64,000 nt of DNA, from positions 1 to 64,000 of the forward strand of contig NZ_CVRR01000004.1 of NCBI RefSeq assembly GCF_001406815.1. The letters run 5' to 3'. This document shows, piece by piece, positions 5,844-45,530 of the stretch. The notes under the pieces were generated by a model that was not told the origin of the DNA, searched no databases, and was given only the letters and a program-made list of their open reading frames with translations. The position numbers and the translations under genes were made by a program. How positions within the stretch are numbered: position 1 is the first letter of the stretch; the number at the start of each line of letters is the position of its first letter. The DNA is from Roseburia faecis (GTDB lineage: Bacteria > Bacillota > Clostridia > Lachnospirales > Lachnospiraceae).

Positions 5844-5855
5844 ATGATGATTAAA

Positions 5856-5915
5856 GGGTCAAAAGGTATCATCGATGCATGCTTGCATGCAATTCGATGT
5901 ATACCTTAGTGACCC
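5856..5915. repeat. 60-nt imperfect hairpin after the mannanase gene
   Basis: The outer arms GGGTCA/TGACCC, then AGGTAT/ATACCT, CATCGA/TCGATG and TGCATGC/GCATGCA pair in order, with only small internal loops. It begins 12 nt after the mannanase stop. There is no T run after it, so it is not a typical terminator. It could be an mRNA-stabilising structure or a small palindromic repeat element. Confidence 0.7.
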
Positions 5916-5959
5916 GCACTACACCGAGAAAGTAGCAATTTGCTGCGAAAACGCAGAAA

Positions 5960-6415
5960 ATTTGCGGATTTCGAGGTGGAATCGGCAAAATGTTTGGCCG
6001 CGCTTTTTCCGGCGAGAGCATGTTTGTCAACCGTTACACAGCAAGAAACGGAAACGGACTGATTGCATTCGCATCCAGTTTTCCGGGATCTATTCGTGCA
6101 TTTGAAATCGCACCGGGACAGGAAATCATTGCACAGAAGAGTGCATTCCTGGCTTCAAGTGCTTCCGTAGAAATGTCCATCTTTTTCCAGAAGCGATTCG
6201 GAAGCGGATTATTCGGTGGAGATACGCAGGGACAAGGAACCGATCTGACCATTGGTTCCGGATCCTACATTGATGATTTTGAGGATCAGTTGATCGGTGC
6301 CCATCCGGGGGATAAAGTAGAAGTGAAAGTTACCTTCCCGGAGAACTATGGTAACGATGAATTGAATGGGAAAGAAGCAACATTTAAAGTAACTGTAAAT
6401 GGAATTTATGAATAA
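5960..6415 (+). pseudogene. Chimeric remnant: internal fragment of an AIM24-family gene fused in frame to the FKBP 3' end
   Basis: An open frame of 141 codons from ATG 5990. Its first ~77 residues resemble the inner part of TIGR00266/AIM24 proteins ([48 protein letters not shown]). Similarity continues a few codons upstream of that ATG (GGIGK) before an in-frame stop at 5933-5935, so the AIM24 N terminus is missing. At FGG the frame passes directly into the last 67 residues of the FKBP protein, identical in sequence, and ends at the same stop. There is no ribosome site or signal peptide. It is most likely a non-functional recombination product. Confidence 0.8.
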
Positions 6416-35111: not shown

Positions 35112-36587
35112 TCAATTACTTTCTATTGTATAAGTCCCCTCTTCAAAATTTACATGCAATTCGGCATATGCCCCGTCATATTCCCAGCGGATTTCCAGAG
35201 AACTCTCCTCTCCGGAGATTGTCACCTCTGCACCTTCCGAAAATGCCTTATGGGTATTTCTCATACGGATTAGCGCAAGCTGTTTTTGAACCACATCTTT
35301 TTTCAGTCCTTCCGCGATCTGATCAACGGAAATATTTGTCCGATTGATTTCCTTATGTCCGGATTCCCCTGCACGCTGCACCGCTTCATGGTCATTTTTT
35401 CCGGCAAACAGATCCAGATACCAGATCTGCGGTTTGCCCGGCATAAACATCTGGATGGCCCGCGCCAGAAGCATTTTTTCATCCGACTCTCCCAATGCAC
35501 TGTAGTACGTGGCATTTACCTGATAATACAGATTCTTTTGTCCATGTAAATTTTTGACCATGCCCCCACGGGATACAATCCGGTCAATTAACGACTGGAT
35601 CTCCTCTTTTGGAAGCAGTCCCTTTAAATCCAGAAGCGGGATACCGTCGTGACAGCCAAGCATGTTGACCGTGGAGATCTTCTTTTCCACAATTTCCTTC
35701 GCCCATGCTGCAAGGTATGTTCCGCGCCTGTTCTCAATCGCATCAATGACCAGTCCCGGCAGGAAAAAGTCGTAGGTCGCATAGCCTTTTTCTGCAAGCG
35801 TCTGGTATATTTTTTCGTCATACGCTGCGTGGATCTCCGGCAAAAGCGTAAGTCCCAAAGGTTCTGCCAGCGCATGAATCTTCTGTAAAAGTTCCCATGT
35901 CTCCGGATCATTGAGGAAGTTTTTCTTTCCCGGTGTCTTCGGCGCATAGGCAAAGGCATCCAGCCGCACGATCGCCGCTCCATAAGAAGCTATTTTCTCC
36001 AGTGTTTCACGATAAAACTCCCACACCTTTGGCGACTGGATGTTTACATCCATCTGTCCAAGATAGTGTCTGCCATGCACTTCCTGATAAAAGGTATTCC
36101 AGTACGGCACCTTTTTTCCATCTGGAAATTCCACCATCAGGATCGGCAGCCCGGGTTTGCGGAAAAACATCTGCTTCAGGCAGCTTTCCTCCGGCTGGAT
36201 ATAGCCTTCCTCCGTCATGGTTCCATGCCCTTCCCAGAAGCGGTTCCAGTCGATGAAAAAATCGCGGTACGCAGAAGCCTCCCCTTTTTCCACAAGATCC
36301 TGAAACTGTGGGGACTGTGCGGAAGCATGGTTTAAAATAAAATCCAGTTTCAGGTCAATCCCCATATTCTTTAACTGGTCAAGGTCTTCCCGGTTGGCAA
36401 GCTGCTCATTCAGGTCATAGTCGATCACGGAAAATCCCCGGTCGAGATCGGAATGATACAGGCTCGGCAGAATGTAAAAGGAAGAAAATACATCCTGCAT
36501 TGCCTCAGTTTTTAGCAATGTTACAATATCTCCCAGATTTCCTCCAAGACTGTCGGGATATGCATTGAGCATCGGTTTATGGTTCAT
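35112..36587 (-). CDS. GH13_18 sucrose (6F-phosphate) phosphorylase
   Basis: A 491-residue phosphorylase that splits sucrose or sucrose 6F-phosphate with phosphate, giving glucose 1-phosphate. Catalytic residues are visible: nucleophile D210 in AAIVRLDAFAYA, acid/base E251 in LLPEIHA and D314 in GCHDGIPLLD; the N terminus NAYPDSLGGNLGDI is typical of the subfamily. Its start overlaps the AgaSK gene by 11 bp. In Ruminococcus gnavus the equivalent neighbour of AgaSK is a sucrose 6F-phosphate phosphorylase, so the phosphorylated sugar is the more likely substrate here. Specificity cannot be fixed from sequence alone. Confidence 0.9.
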   Translation of the reverse strand: MNHKPMLNAYPDSLGGNLGDIVTLLKTEAMQDVFSSFYILPSLYHSDLDRGFSVIDYDLNEQLANREDLDQLKNMGIDLKLDFILNHASAQSPQFQDLVEKGEASAYRDFFIDWNRFWEGHGTMTEEGYIQPEESCLKQMFFRKPGLPILMVEFPDGKKVPYWNTFYQEVHGRHYLGQMDVNIQSPKVWEFYRETLEKIASYGAAIVRLDAFAYAPKTPGKKNFLNDPETWELLQKIHALAEPLGLTLLPEIHAAYDEKIYQTLAEKGYATYDFFLPGLVIDAIENRRGTYLAAWAKEIVEKKISTVNMLGCHDGIPLLDLKGLLPKEEIQSLIDRIVSRGGMVKNLHGQKNLYYQVNATYYSALGESDEKMLLARAIQMFMPGKPQIWYLDLFAGKNDHEAVQRAGESGHKEINRTNISVDQIAEGLKKDVVQKQLALIRMRNTHKAFSEGAEVTISGEESSLEIRWEYDGAYAELHVNFEEGTYTIESN

Positions 36588-39384
36588 AAACTCTTCCGTC
36601 CTTTCCCACGATTAATCCTGCATTTTTGCGCTGCACTTCAAGTTTTTCCTGTTCCAGTTCTACCACGCGGCAGATAAACGGGCTTGCGGCATTCTCATCG
36701 CGGTTTCTGCGGATACGCCGCTCCCTGGTCTCCTCTGGGGAACTTTCCAGAAAGACGGGCAGATCCACACCATGTAAATCGTCACTGCCTCCGTGTGTCC
36801 ACTCCAGAAGTAATACGGATATTCCGGAAAAATCGGTTTCTTCCGATGAAATCTCGCCATCTTCCCGTCCCATATGCCGCAATGTGATCGTATCTTTTCC
36901 CTCATGAAATGCCGCAAGCACTTCATTGATCCGGTCGAAGTCAATCTCTTTCTTTGTTCCGAGATATCCACGCAGTCCATCTTCCCCCGTTTCTTTATAC
37001 ACACGCATCCGTTCTTCATCATTGCGTTTTGGAATCCGGTGTGGATAATCATCGCCCGAGAGCAGATAACAACCAGTTCCGTCATTTAAAAAGTACTGCT
37101 GCAATGCCGTTGCGAGTGTTGTTTTTCCGGAACCGGAACCACCGTAAAGGCTGATGACCACTCGATTTTTGGCATTCCTGTCACACCATTTCTGCACTTT
37201 TTCATATAATGTTCCAGCCTCTTTCAGCTCTGTAAGAGAAAACTGATATGCCTCATATTCTCCGGTAAACGGCGGAAGCGGAATTCCCGCATGCATCAGT
37301 GCTGCACCGGAATACTGCCTGCCGCTCTGTTCTTCCAGATACACGGCATCCGGTTTTAACCCACGCAGGCGGACATAAACGGTCGCCTGATTTGCCTCTG
37401 CCATAAGACGCACTACGCTTACCAGTGCATGATCCTGTTGCTCTGAGACGGACATCCATGCCGCAATTTCATCCGTAAACGGATCCGACAGCCGCCAGTA
37501 CGTTCCCTCGTTAATGAGCGTTTCATACTTCTTGTACGTTTTGATCTGCTCCCGGATCTGCTGTTTTTCCTCATCCGATAAAAGCGCCGGGTTTAATTCG
37601 TAACCGAAAGTTCCTGCCATCGCCGTCACTCCACGGGTATGCAGACTTGTCAATCTTCCTGTCTGGTGATTCGGCACTGCGGAAACATGTGCCCCCACAG
37701 CAGAAACCGGATAAAAAAAGGAGGTTCCGTACTGAATCCTTGTGCGGTTAATCGCATCCGTATTGTCACTGCACCAGATCTGCGGAGAATAATAAAGCAT
37801 TCCTGCATCAAATCTGCCACCTCCGCCGCTGCATCCTTCCAGCAGCAAATCCGGGTAACGGTTCGTCAGACGTTCGAGGAAATCATAAACACCAAGTACA
37901 TAATCATAGGAAAGATTTCCAGCATAGACATCTGCCATGCTGCGGTTCATATCCCACTTGACATAATCAATTTTTCCCTGATCGAGCACGGCACAGATCT
38001 GGTCAAATACACAGTCGCGCACTTCTTTTCTGGAAAAATCAAGCAGTAGCTGGTTTCTCGAGCGCACCGGCTTTTTCCCCGGAATCCGGATCGCCCAGTC
38101 CGGATGCGCCCGGTACAGATCACTGTCTTCATTGACCATCTCCGGCTCAATCCAGATGCCAAATTTCACGCCCTGCTCATGCACACGGGTAATAAGATCT
38201 GCCAGACTGCCCCCCAGTTTCTTTTCGTTGACCTGCCAGTCCCCAAGGGAAGAATTGTCATCATTTCTTTTCCCGAACCAACCGTCATCCATCACTACCA
38301 TATCAATCCCAAGGGAAGCGGCTTCTTTTGCCAGATCCACAATCGTATCTCCCGTAAAATCGAAATAGGCTGCCTCCCAGCTGTTGATCAGCACCGGACG
38401 CTGCATATGGACATATTTGCTGCGGCACACATGGTTACGGATGCAGTTATGATACTGCTGCGACAATGCAGACAATCCATCTGCCGAATAGGATAAAATG
38501 ACTTCCGGCACCGTAAAGGTTTCTCCAGCCGCGAGCGGGTAGGAAAACAGTTCTTCATTTAATCCAAGAAGCAGGCGCGTCTGGTTGAACTGGTCTTTTT
38601 CCGCCTCACAGGAGAAATTGCCGCTGTATACAAACAGCATGCCATAGCAGCTGCCTGCCGTCTCTGTTGTCCCTTTTTCTGCCAGAATTACTGCCGGATT
38701 ATACTGATGGCTGGATGTTCCCCTGCGGCTGCCAAACGCAATCGTTCCATGTCCCAGCGGGGTGCGCTCCAGATTGCGCTCCATGGCATGCTTTCCATAA
38801 AACCGCAGGACATCAAACTCTCCCTGTACAAAATCCAGACAGGCTGCCGCTGCCTTTTCGATCGTAATCTGTCCGGTTCCCATATTTTTAATCCGGACAC
38901 TCCTTGTAATGATATCGGTTTCTTCTAAAACGCCATACAGCAGATGCACTTCAACCTGTGCGTTTTCATCTGCAAGGACTATTTCCAGTGTCTGTGCTTC
39001 GTTTTCATCTGCCCAGACAGCCGGAAGTCCCTGTAACTGATACTTGCCGCTTCGGATCTCATAGCTCTTAAAAAGCAGATCTGCACTTTCCACCCCTTTT
39101 TCATTTTTGATATTCAGCGCGATATTGCGGTAATCCCCTGTGCCAAGGGACGGATACTCCTGTGGCAGCGCATCCAGCGAATAGGTGCGGTCCATGCCCG
39201 CTGCATAAGGATTTCCGGAAAATCCGCGGTCTGCATAGGTTAAGACATAATCCATGGAACTGTTTGTTTTTTCCCCATAGTACAGATGCAGCAGATATCC
39301 CAATGGGTCGACCTGCATCTGATAGGTTGTATGCGCTGTATGCAGGGTAAAGATTTTTTTATTTGGATTGTATATAATTGCCAT
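36577..39384 (-). CDS. agaSK: Bifunctional GH36 alpha-galactosidase / sucrose kinase (AgaSK)
   Basis: A 935-residue fusion. Residues 1-~720 are a GH36 alpha-galactosidase: VLINSWEAAYFDF, MVVMDDGWFGKR, nucleophile D478 in KWDMNRS and acid/base D540 in CSDNTDAINR. The last ~200 residues are a P-loop kinase with Walker A GGSGSGKTT near residue 750, GDDYPHRIPKRNDEERMR and a late arginine-rich lid (ETRERRIRRNRDE). This matches AgaSK of Ruminococcus gnavus, which removes galactose from raffinose and phosphorylates the sucrose to sucrose 6-phosphate. ATG 39384 follows GAGGTGG; an upstream GTG is weaker. It overlaps the phosphorylase gene, completing a raffinose-to-glucose-1-phosphate route. Confidence 0.95.
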   Translation of the reverse strand: MAIIYNPNKKIFTLHTAHTTYQMQVDPLGYLLHLYYGEKTNSSMDYVLTYADRGFSGNPYAAGMDRTYSLDALPQEYPSLGTGDYRNIALNIKNEKGVESADLLFKSYEIRSGKYQLQGLPAVWADENEAQTLEIVLADENAQVEVHLLYGVLEETDIITRSVRIKNMGTGQITIEKAAAACLDFVQGEFDVLRFYGKHAMERNLERTPLGHGTIAFGSRRGTSSHQYNPAVILAEKGTTETAGSCYGMLFVYSGNFSCEAEKDQFNQTRLLLGLNEELFSYPLAAGETFTVPEVILSYSADGLSALSQQYHNCIRNHVCRSKYVHMQRPVLINSWEAAYFDFTGDTIVDLAKEAASLGIDMVVMDDGWFGKRNDDNSSLGDWQVNEKKLGGSLADLITRVHEQGVKFGIWIEPEMVNEDSDLYRAHPDWAIRIPGKKPVRSRNQLLLDFSRKEVRDCVFDQICAVLDQGKIDYVKWDMNRSMADVYAGNLSYDYVLGVYDFLERLTNRYPDLLLEGCSGGGGRFDAGMLYYSPQIWCSDNTDAINRTRIQYGTSFFYPVSAVGAHVSAVPNHQTGRLTSLHTRGVTAMAGTFGYELNPALLSDEEKQQIREQIKTYKKYETLINEGTYWRLSDPFTDEIAAWMSVSEQQDHALVSVVRLMAEANQATVYVRLRGLKPDAVYLEEQSGRQYSGAALMHAGIPLPPFTGEYEAYQFSLTELKEAGTLYEKVQKWCDRNAKNRVVISLYGGSGSGKTTLATALQQYFLNDGTGCYLLSGDDYPHRIPKRNDEERMRVYKETGEDGLRGYLGTKKEIDFDRINEVLAAFHEGKDTITLRHMGREDGEISSEETDFSGISVLLLEWTHGGSDDLHGVDLPVFLESSPEETRERRIRRNRDENAASPFICRVVELEQEKLEVQRKNAGLIVGKDGRVYEP

Positions 39385-39406
39385 AGAAGCCACCTCGTTT
39401 TATTTT

Positions 39407-43432: not shown

Positions 43433-45118
43433 TTATGCTTCCTGCTTCTTTGCAGTAAACAGTTTCTTCAGACAGCTGAATGCAACCAGCACACCGAGAA
43501 CCATCAGAAGAATAGCCACGATAAACTGCAGACCGTCTACCAGGAAAGTTGCCTGACCACCGGAAATATTGGAAACCAGTGCAATGGTCTTCTGGATCAG
43601 TGCGGTAAACGTAACTGCCAGCATAACAAACATCGGTATGTAAAGTGTCCAGCCGGTTCTTCCAGTTGTCTTTAAGAATACCGCAAGTGCAATCAGTACA
43701 AGTGCTGCAAGCAGCTGGTTCGCAGAACCAAACAGTGGCCAGATATTATTGTATCCGCCAAGAGTCAGTAAATAACCAAAGAATAAGGTAATAATTGTTG
43801 CAAAATATTTATTAGTCAGAACTTTCTGCCAGCCCGGCATCTTGGAAGTGTCAGTAGTATCCCCGTAAAACAGCTCCTGAAACGACATACGTCCGATCCG
43901 TGCAACAGAATCGAGAGAGGTCAGTGCCAGTGCAGATACACACATCGTCATAAATACGGTAGCAACCTGTACCGGAATACCGAATTTTTCGAAAAATCCT
44001 GCAACACCAGCAGAGAAAATAGAAAACGGAGTACCCTCCGGCTTTGTTCCGTTTACGGCAACCGCACCAACAACAACCAGTGCAATGACTCCGAGCAGTG
44101 ACTCTACCACCATGGCACCATAACCGACCATTGGCATATCTTTCTCATTACTGATGGTCTTTGATGATGTTCCGGAAGAAACCAGACTGTGGAATCCGGA
44201 TACCGCACCACAGGCAATCGTTACAAATAAGGTAGGGAACAGATAACTGCCATCTACATTAAATCCGCTAAATGCATTCAGCTTCATAGTCGGATGCTCG
44301 GCAATGACACCGACAACCGCACCAATGATCATGCCCAGCAGCATGAAAGTGGTCATGTAATCACGCGGCTCCATGAGCAGCCACATCGGCATGACAGAGG
44401 CAAGGAACAGATATGCCATAACAATATAGATCCAGGTACTCTTTGTCGCATACATTGGAAGTTTCATACCAATGATAAACATGACAACCAACAGGGCAAT
44501 GGCAACCACTGCGCGAACCCACTCTTTCATTTTCCCGACCTTTTTCTGAATCAGGCCAAAGATGATGGCAACAACGATAAACAACATGGAAATGGATGCT
44601 GCTGCGGAATTCGCATAGCCTGTTGCCTTTGTCATCCCTTCCACACCTTTTCCGACAAACGTTCCGGCAACCATATCGGTAAAAGCTGCCATAACCAGAA
44701 GGGTAAACAGCCAGCAGAACAGCATAAATAATTTCCGTCCGGTTCTTCCGATATATTTCTCGATGATCATTCCCATCGATTTTCCTTCATTTTTAACGGA
44801 AGCATACAGTGCACCGAAATCCTGCACGGCTCCGAAAAACAGACCTCCGATCAGCAGCCATAACAATACCGGCACCCAGCCGAATACGGATGCCAGGATC
44901 GGTCCGGTGACAGGTCCCGCACCTGCAATGGAAGAAAACTGATGGGCAAACACTGTCAGTTTGGAGGAAGGAACATAATCCTGTCCATCTTCATGCGTAT
45001 AAGCCGGAGTTTTTGCTTTCGGATCCAGCCCCCATTTGCTGGCAAGCCAGCGTCCGTATAACAGATAGCCGGCACCAAGTACTACAATTGCAATTAATAC
45101 GATAACTAAACCATTCAT
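43433..45118 (-). CDS. cstA: CstA-family transporter
   Basis: A 561-residue membrane protein of the carbon-starvation CstA/BtsT family, which imports pyruvate or peptides. About 15 hydrophobic segments are visible, with characteristic blocks FAHQFSSIAGAGPVTGPILASVFGWVP, VQDFGALYASVKNEGKSMG and HSLVSSGTSSKTISNEKD. ATG 45118 begins the conserved family N terminus; the longer frame upstream lacks similarity and runs into the leader terminator. The ribosome site is weak. It is preceded by a T-box leader, so expression should respond to charging of a tRNA, which favours an amino-acid or peptide role. Confidence 0.88.
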   Translation of the reverse strand: MNGLVIVLIAIVVLGAGYLLYGRWLASKWGLDPKAKTPAYTHEDGQDYVPSSKLTVFAHQFSSIAGAGPVTGPILASVFGWVPVLLWLLIGGLFFGAVQDFGALYASVKNEGKSMGMIIEKYIGRTGRKLFMLFCWLFTLLVMAAFTDMVAGTFVGKGVEGMTKATGYANSAAASISMLFIVVAIIFGLIQKKVGKMKEWVRAVVAIALLVVMFIIGMKLPMYATKSTWIYIVMAYLFLASVMPMWLLMEPRDYMTTFMLLGMIIGAVVGVIAEHPTMKLNAFSGFNVDGSYLFPTLFVTIACGAVSGFHSLVSSGTSSKTISNEKDMPMVGYGAMVVESLLGVIALVVVGAVAVNGTKPEGTPFSIFSAGVAGFFEKFGIPVQVATVFMTMCVSALALTSLDSVARIGRMSFQELFYGDTTDTSKMPGWQKVLTNKYFATIITLFFGYLLTLGGYNNIWPLFGSANQLLAALVLIALAVFLKTTGRTGWTLYIPMFVMLAVTFTALIQKTIALVSNISGGQATFLVDGLQFIVAILLMVLGVLVAFSCLKKLFTAKKQEA

Positions 45119-45181
45119 TGTTTTTTCGCCATTTGGCGACTCCCTTCTTAAATATTTGCAAAGAGACAGGAACAAGAATTT

Positions 45182-45500
45182 AAAAAGCCTCCGTCCCATA
45201 TACCTGTTACAGTATATAAAGACGAAGGCTTATTTTATGCTTCCGCGTTACCACTTTATTTGCCGTATCAAACGACCGCTCACTCTCATCTCAACAGACT
45301 CCCCTCTGCAGAAATAAGGTTCCTGATAACGGTAGAATACCGGTGAAGCTTACTGTCCTGACGGAATTCAGCCCACAGCTCACAGAGGATGGTCACCATA
45401 TCTGTCTGTTGTCTCGCACCGCCCGACAACTCTCTGGAAAAAAGTATATTGTGATCGTATTCTGTTCTATGCATTTGCTCTATGACTCTTCGTTAACAAA
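45182..45500 (-). ncRNA. T-box riboswitch leader of cstA
   Basis: Read on the minus strand, the leader shows a stem I distal loop (AGAGAG...GGCGGTGCGAGACAAC), the T-box bulge AAAGTGGTAACGCGG (45241-45256) and a terminator GCCTTCGTC/GACGGAGGC followed by TTTTT (45182-45229). Uncharged tRNA should bind the leader and prevent termination. The specifier lies near GTGACCATC; ACC (Thr) or ATC (Ile) are candidates, not resolved by eye. Confidence 0.9.
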
Positions 45501-45501
45501 A

Positions 45502-45530
45502 AACATAGCACTTGATTCGACAATTGTCAA
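45502..45530 (-). promoter_or_regulatory. Promoter of the T-box/cstA transcript
   Basis: Minus-strand TTGACA and TATGTT are 17 nt apart, starting transcription just before the T-box stem I. It lies 13 nt after the stop of the upstream permease gene. Confidence 0.7.

Follow-up and report, generated by a model that had tools for sequence, protein, structure and literature searches.

The window, a stretch of 64,000 nucleotides from Roseburia faecis, carries on its reverse strand cstA (43433..45118, −), which encodes a CstA family transporter of 561 amino acids (PF02554, 498 bits against a cut-off of 27), and upstream of it a T-box leader. A full-length match to the T-box model RF00230 lies at 45478-45215 (−) and covers model positions 1-219 (cmscan; 94.1 bits against a gathering cut-off of 93, E 2.5e-19). 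The cstA start at 45118 is 96 nt past the end of this match, and no other ORF of at least 80 codons on the same strand lies between the two. The span 45182-45530 comprises promoter, T-box and terminator hairpin. The putative sigma70-like promoter (45502..45530, −) consists of TTGACA (45530-45525), a 17-nt spacer and TATGTT (45507-45502); it precedes the leader, which occupies 45215..45478 (−) over the whole length of the covariance model. Within stem I (45374..45475, −), covarying helices flank the specifier loop on both sides, and the apical region shows the conserved CAGAGAG...GGYG at 45436-45417 (−). The T-box sequence AAAGUGGUAACGCGG (45243..45257, −) holds UGGU at 45253-45250, the expected partner of which is the ACCA end of tRNA-Ile. 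The antiterminator helix of the Rfam structure (45211..45258, −) folds alone at −6.7 kcal/mol and the intrinsic terminator (45182..45229, −), a hairpin at 45229-45187 with its U run, at −24.2 kcal/mol; the 5' arm of the terminator is also used by the weaker antiterminator in these folds.

A complete T-box leader before cstA is what the preliminary description had proposed, naming a covariance search as the check that could overturn it. The match over the gathering cut-off, together with stem I, the UGGU, the terminator and a CstA gene as the next gene, bears the proposal out, and the assignment to RF00230 draws further on the covariation of stem I, the fit between UGGN and the discriminator base, and the competition between antiterminator and terminator. 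A crude scan, which misses the window's own terminator, picks up terminators in 30 of the 46 distinct relatives and in 6 of 46 shuffled sequences.

The Shine-Dalgarno sequence AAGGGAG (45146-45140) is followed, before the cstA AUG, by a 5-bp hairpin, UCGCC-AAAU-GGCGA (45139-45126; both within 45126..45146, −). Hairpins of at least 5 pairs occupy this interval in 17 of 34 distinct close relatives, a count that includes L116, which looks spurious, against 5.2 in shuffles, and their stems vary (CCGCC/GGCGG, UCGCC/GGCGA, GUCUG/CAGAC). The hairpin may reduce spacing or serve as a regulator-binding site. A five-codon leader ORF overlapping the cstA start (AUG GCG AAA AAA CAA UGA, 45132-45115) was considered for the same place and rejected: its AUG varies in relatives, and the surrounding hairpin is kept.

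How would such a leader act? We infer a response to tRNA by transcription attenuation, in which uncharged tRNA-Ile(GAU) would be read by pairing of its anticodon with the AUC of stem I and of its free ACCA end with the UGGU bulge. The antiterminator would then sequester the terminator's 5' arm, allowing transcription of cstA; with charged tRNA, the terminator would form. Isoleucine starvation would in this scheme induce an importer of the CstA type that contributes to the supply of branched-chain amino acids.

By our reading of the translations, the neighbours of cstA in the window encode sugar ABC transporters and a regulator of the AraC type, and are not amino-acid genes; it is therefore the T-box by itself that links cstA to a pathway there. 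Elsewhere the window holds a Clostridiales-1 RNA (5848-6029, +; RF01699, 73.4 bits against a cut-off of 48) and a 938-aa ORF (36577-39393, −) that we take to resemble an AgaSK-like fusion of an alpha-galactosidase with a kinase-like P-loop domain. The source genome (3.33 Mb, 100 contigs) yields ten T-box matches at E 0.001, of which five exceed the cut-off. From sequence features we take the genes behind them to be ileS, valS, thrS, pheS, tyrS, aspS, trpE and the gene of a Trp-type ABC substrate-binding protein; the remaining two, which were also tested with Pfam, are those of a BASS-family transporter and cstA. The leader of the former is a second Ile-type T-box with AUC and UGGU (L001, G000:C37:199430-199670, −). 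The protein behind it matches Pfam SBF above the cut-off, and its best NCBIfam matches, TIGR00841 and PanS, both fall below theirs; at E 1e-60 it is present in 7 of 80 genomes, the source genome and six others at 38-44% identity, close orthologues being rare. BASS-type transporter families carry 2-oxo acids.

Specifier codon and conservation of the leader

The 3' loop of stem I has eight bases, GACCAUCC, and its bases 5-7 form the AUC (isoleucine) specifier at 45388..45390 (−), a register adopted because the ileS (GAAAAUCA) and thrS (GAAGACCA) leaders of the same genome share it. Immediately 3' of the specifier, cstA leaders often have C where these two have A. A covariance model of the cstA stem I, which we call R1, matches five control leaders of aminoacyl-tRNA-synthetase or tryptophan genes; it reads four correctly (ileS AUC, thrS ACC, Trp-ABC UGG, pheS UUC) and places the specifier of the fifth, trpE, one base off; the valS, tyrS and aspS leaders give no R1 match at E 0.1. 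The UGGU of the T-box bulge calls for discriminator A, which is found in the tRNA-Ile(GAU) of the source genome, and the thrS leader has UGGA, in agreement with the discriminator U of tRNA-Thr.

The same loop also contains ACC and CAU, and a specifier for threonine or histidine would thus have the letters that it needs. Neither triplet is conserved, whereas AUC/CUC keep their U and C without exception across 32 and 30 aligned leaders, and the UGGU fits neither the own-genome tRNA-Thr (U in all three read) nor tRNA-His (C); we regard both codons as extremely improbable. CCA was ruled out by conservation alone, since tRNA-Pro shares discriminator A. The choice between ACC and ATC that had been left standing in the preliminary description is thereby decided for ATC on register, conservation and the tRNA-Ile discriminator, and ACC is dropped.

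To what extent is this arrangement conserved? The search for CstA was made without reference to T-boxes, in 200 family genomes, 398 phylum genomes and a genome contig collection, and the branch of the window's protein comprises 89 loci at >50% identity, with some species present in two collections. T-boxes lie in 59 of the 80 branch loci that have at least 450 nt upstream, among them records from Roseburia, Agathobacter, Eisenbergiella, Lachnospira and Anaerotruncus. All 59 carry AUC or CUC: the specifier is AUC in 49 and CUC (leucine) in 10, those of L119 and L123 having been read by eye from a second alignment. With identical upstream regions merged (n=74), 45 have AUC, 9 have CUC and 20 are without a T-box. 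The difference between AUC and CUC amounts to two changes on the tree (FastTree, 134 CstA proteins), and control has therefore moved within the branched-chain amino acids. The proposed tie of cstA to one amino acid thus holds for the source genome, where the specifier names isoleucine; to judge from the codons of the relatives, it would be refined to a tie to branched-chain amino acids rather than strictly to isoleucine, because 10 of the 59 branch leaders carry CUC.

Among the 21 branch loci without a T-box, 20 (all but L074) have no Rfam T-box at E 0.01, and 18 gave no credible stem I when R1 was run unfiltered. L052 gives a weak R1 match (E 0.037) distant from the leader, and L053 has a T-box-like core with UGGC and no recognisable stem I. 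A TwoAYGGAY RNA (86.3 bits against a cut-off of 43) lies upstream of cstA at L098:2165-2328, in a relative without a T-box match. One strain has two copies of cstA, an intact one (L091) and one interrupted by four in-frame stops (L100), and the same is seen in G122 (G122:C74).

The pairing of stem I is preserved by compensated changes. In an alignment of 65 matches fitted to the R1 model (57 cstA leaders, 2 leaders of divergent ilv genes and 6 other own-genome T-boxes; 58 distinct rows), pairing over the 24 base pairs of stem I amounts to 91.7%, compared with 65.2% when shuffled and 33.0-47.1% when slid, and covariation reaches 0.753 against 0.252, a value attained by none of 500 shuffles. When 30 cstA leaders are simply aligned with MAFFT, 22 of the 24 predicted pairs show at least one compensated change. 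The two ilv leaders belong to Oscillospiraceae relatives in which the divergent neighbour facing cstA has a stem I of its own: ilvBN with AUC (L102:2357-2458, −; R1 62.8 bits) and ilvE with CUC (L104:2268-2367, −; R1 55.8 bits). They represent one association, at most two, because the lineages are sisters.

The CstA protein and its sister branch

PF02554 is the only Pfam family that the window's CstA matches at E 0.001, with no match to BrnQ/LIVCS (PF05525) at that threshold. It belongs to the same family as E. coli CstA and BtsT, with 31.8% and 30.0% identity respectively, and 63 columns are near-universal across these two, the window's branch and its sister branch; against the equivalog model of the pyruvate/proton symporter CstA (NF011590) it scores 239.5 bits, below the cut-off of 1188. 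CstA proteins have been placed among LeuT/APC-type folds. An AlphaFold model built from 26 sequences (pLDDT 78.9, pTM 0.81) has broken helices at residues 53-64/68-79 and 294-305/308-318 and resembles LeuT-fold transporters, with the amino-acid transporters SLC7A10 (Z 24.4, spanning residues 45-541) and BasC (Z 24.3) leading the VIA list; the ion carriers NKCC1, KimA and Nramp follow closely, and Foldseek ranks NKCC1 first. The predicted fold alone names no substrate. A sequence search for a solved CstA structure found none, its one match having E 0.13.

A comparison of 74 branch members with 58 sister members and the two E. coli proteins reveals that derived columns are concentrated in the window's branch: 5 against 0 in the sister branch at 90% conservation, 10 against 1 at 80% and 17 against 5 at 70%. 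The five near-fixed residues are V56, Q60, K109, M328 and A406, and at each of these positions the sister consensus has the residue of E. coli CstA and BtsT. V56 and Q60 stand just ahead of the first helix break, and the derived residues may contact the substrate. To our knowledge, no substrate has been assigned to this branch.

The sister branch (58 proteins) separates with 92% local support in the FastTree phylogeny of 134 CstA proteins. An ORF of ~180 codons neighbours cstA in 57 of the 58 sister loci (L129-L187) and never in the window's branch; the one such ORF tested has no Pfam match. Seven sister loci have a nearby cluster of membrane proteins that are LytS-like by appearance. The view that this branch is wholly without T-boxes was overturned after a cut-off match in L167 exposed the 800-nt flanks as too short, because the ~180-codon ORF intervenes. 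The rescan reached up to 2 kb upstream in 39 loci, namely 37 of the 58 sister tree rows together with G169 (42% identity) and G033:C29 (34%); the regions of L217 and L228 extend only ~1 kb, and L151 and L161, near contig ends, were outside it. T-boxes appeared in 2 of these 39 loci, both ahead of the small ORF and cstA and both with a specifier read from the alignment: L224:761-1025 (−; 106.8 bits, AUC) and L211:594-894 (+; 67.6 bits, CUC). None of the 19 sister loci of the phylum search gave a T-box, 14 of them in an Rfam scan and L133, L136, L138, L142 and L143 in an R1 scan only.

The R1 scores of L224 (89.6) and L211 (61.0), to be set beside 38.4 to 98.7 for cstA leaders, 41.6 for ileS and 52.4 for trpE, suggest that the same kind of leader may have been placed before a sister-branch operon. 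The CstA proteins of these two operons have the five E. coli-like residues; control by the T-box therefore does not require the derived residues, and the claim that it belongs only to the derived proteins is weakened. In G004 and G069, where the family-genome search saw no copy of the window's branch, CstA has all five E. coli-like residues.

Candidate substrates of the transporter behind the T-box

What could be the compound carried by the transporter? The T-box does not settle this. We infer inward transport and consider it probable that an isoleucine-reading T-box controls a LeuT-fold CstA branch that most likely imports branched 2-oxo acids or amino acids for branched-chain supply; the 20 of 74 distinct branch upstream regions without a T-box count against this reading. 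We lean towards a branched 2-oxo acid or amino acid, with pyruvate as the main rival; a branched-chain compound is favoured by the agreement between T-box specifiers and gene function, which Wels et al. 2008 report for all verified cases (PMC2494555). The same paper pairs a LIVCS homologue of Bacillus anthracis with an Ile T-box (PMC2494555). The BrnQ/LIVCS permeases and the window's CstA are alike in being transporters under an isoleucine T-box and differ in protein family (PF05525 vs PF02554).

The main rival holds that CstA imports pyruvate as in E. coli, and that cells short of isoleucine need more pyruvate as a substrate of acetolactate synthase. Both E. coli proteins, CstA and BtsT, are described as narrow pyruvate/proton symporters; the Km of CstA for pyruvate is 242 uM, and competition was seen with pyruvate and bromopyruvate alone (PMC7730263). 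Pyruvate is a precursor of isoleucine, leucine and valine, and the switch between Ile and Leu specifiers would fit; the ilvBN with an Ile stem I next to cstA in L102 and the two sister operons that share the T-box kind with E. coli-like residues point the same way. IlvC is present in 36 of 36 window-branch genomes tested, which says little, as 183 of 200 family genomes have it. Against pyruvate stand the low identity to the E. coli protein, the score far below the symporter cut-off and the change of five core residues away from the E. coli state, and we consider this explanation unlikely, if the most serious of the alternatives. Import of peptides, with the T-box taking isoleucine as a gauge of general amino-acid hunger, would follow older work, summarised in PMC5847655, in which CstA figures as a peptide transporter; later work showed the E. 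coli protein to be pyruvate-specific (PMC7730263), and the 59 branch T-boxes carry only Ile and Leu specifiers, which makes it improbable. Finally, the T-box as a leftover of a rearranged unit that does not control cstA, as proposed for cstA1 of Bacillus methanolicus, where a transcription break lies between start site and gene (PMC4342826), is hardly credible in view of the T-box in 59 of 80 loci, the compensated changes in stem I, the conserved specifier and the short distance to cstA.

It is possible, and we offer it tentatively, that the CstA branch constitutes a new importer class for branched-chain amino acids or 2-oxo acids, which arose from a pyruvate transporter via few binding-site changes (H60Q and others) and would be a hitherto unassigned Ile/Leu supply route of Lachnospiraceae and Oscillospiraceae, many of them without BrnQ. 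The source genome has no match to BrnQ (PF05525), which is found in 7 of 31 genomes with the window's CstA branch; as few genomes of the family have it at all (32 of 200), its absence is no proof of replacement. LivJ-type proteins (PF13458) occur in 13 of 22 T-box-cstA genomes at E 0.001, 9 of them over the cut-off, and were not found in the source genome at E 0.001.

Relation to known T-box targets

Targets of Ile-type RF00230 T-boxes include ileS, ilv and brnQ. The window's leader has the same architecture, AUC, UGGU and terminator/antiterminator switch, and here the target is cstA. The regulators in print for the E. coli genes are CRP, CsrA and BtsSR (the latter for btsT), in contrast to the T-box here. 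The only T-box-cstA pair among the matches listed in our search is that of B. methanolicus MGA3, annotated as (T-box)-cstA1 and judged possibly a residue of rearrangement; the T-box stands before cstA in both cases, and the text concerning that pair assigns no amino acid, whereas isoleucine is assigned here (PMC4342826). The term CstA is absent from the main texts of Wels 2008 (PMC2494555), a 2013 regulon survey (PMC3766115) and the TBDB paper (PMC7778990), and supplements and TBDB entries may list other pairs. Within the literature searched, we found no prior description of cstA as what it is here, a conserved, amino-acid-assigned target of a known regulator.

The conservation of the T-box-cstA pair argues against dismissing such pairs as leftovers, as was suggested for B. 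methanolicus. With Ile and Leu specifiers both occurring ahead of the same gene, these leaders show cleanly how a T-box can switch its amino acid within one pathway group. CstA proteins are widespread, and the conserved Ile/Leu T-box provides a direct hint that, in common gut bacteria, one large branch of them may have a role in branched-chain supply.
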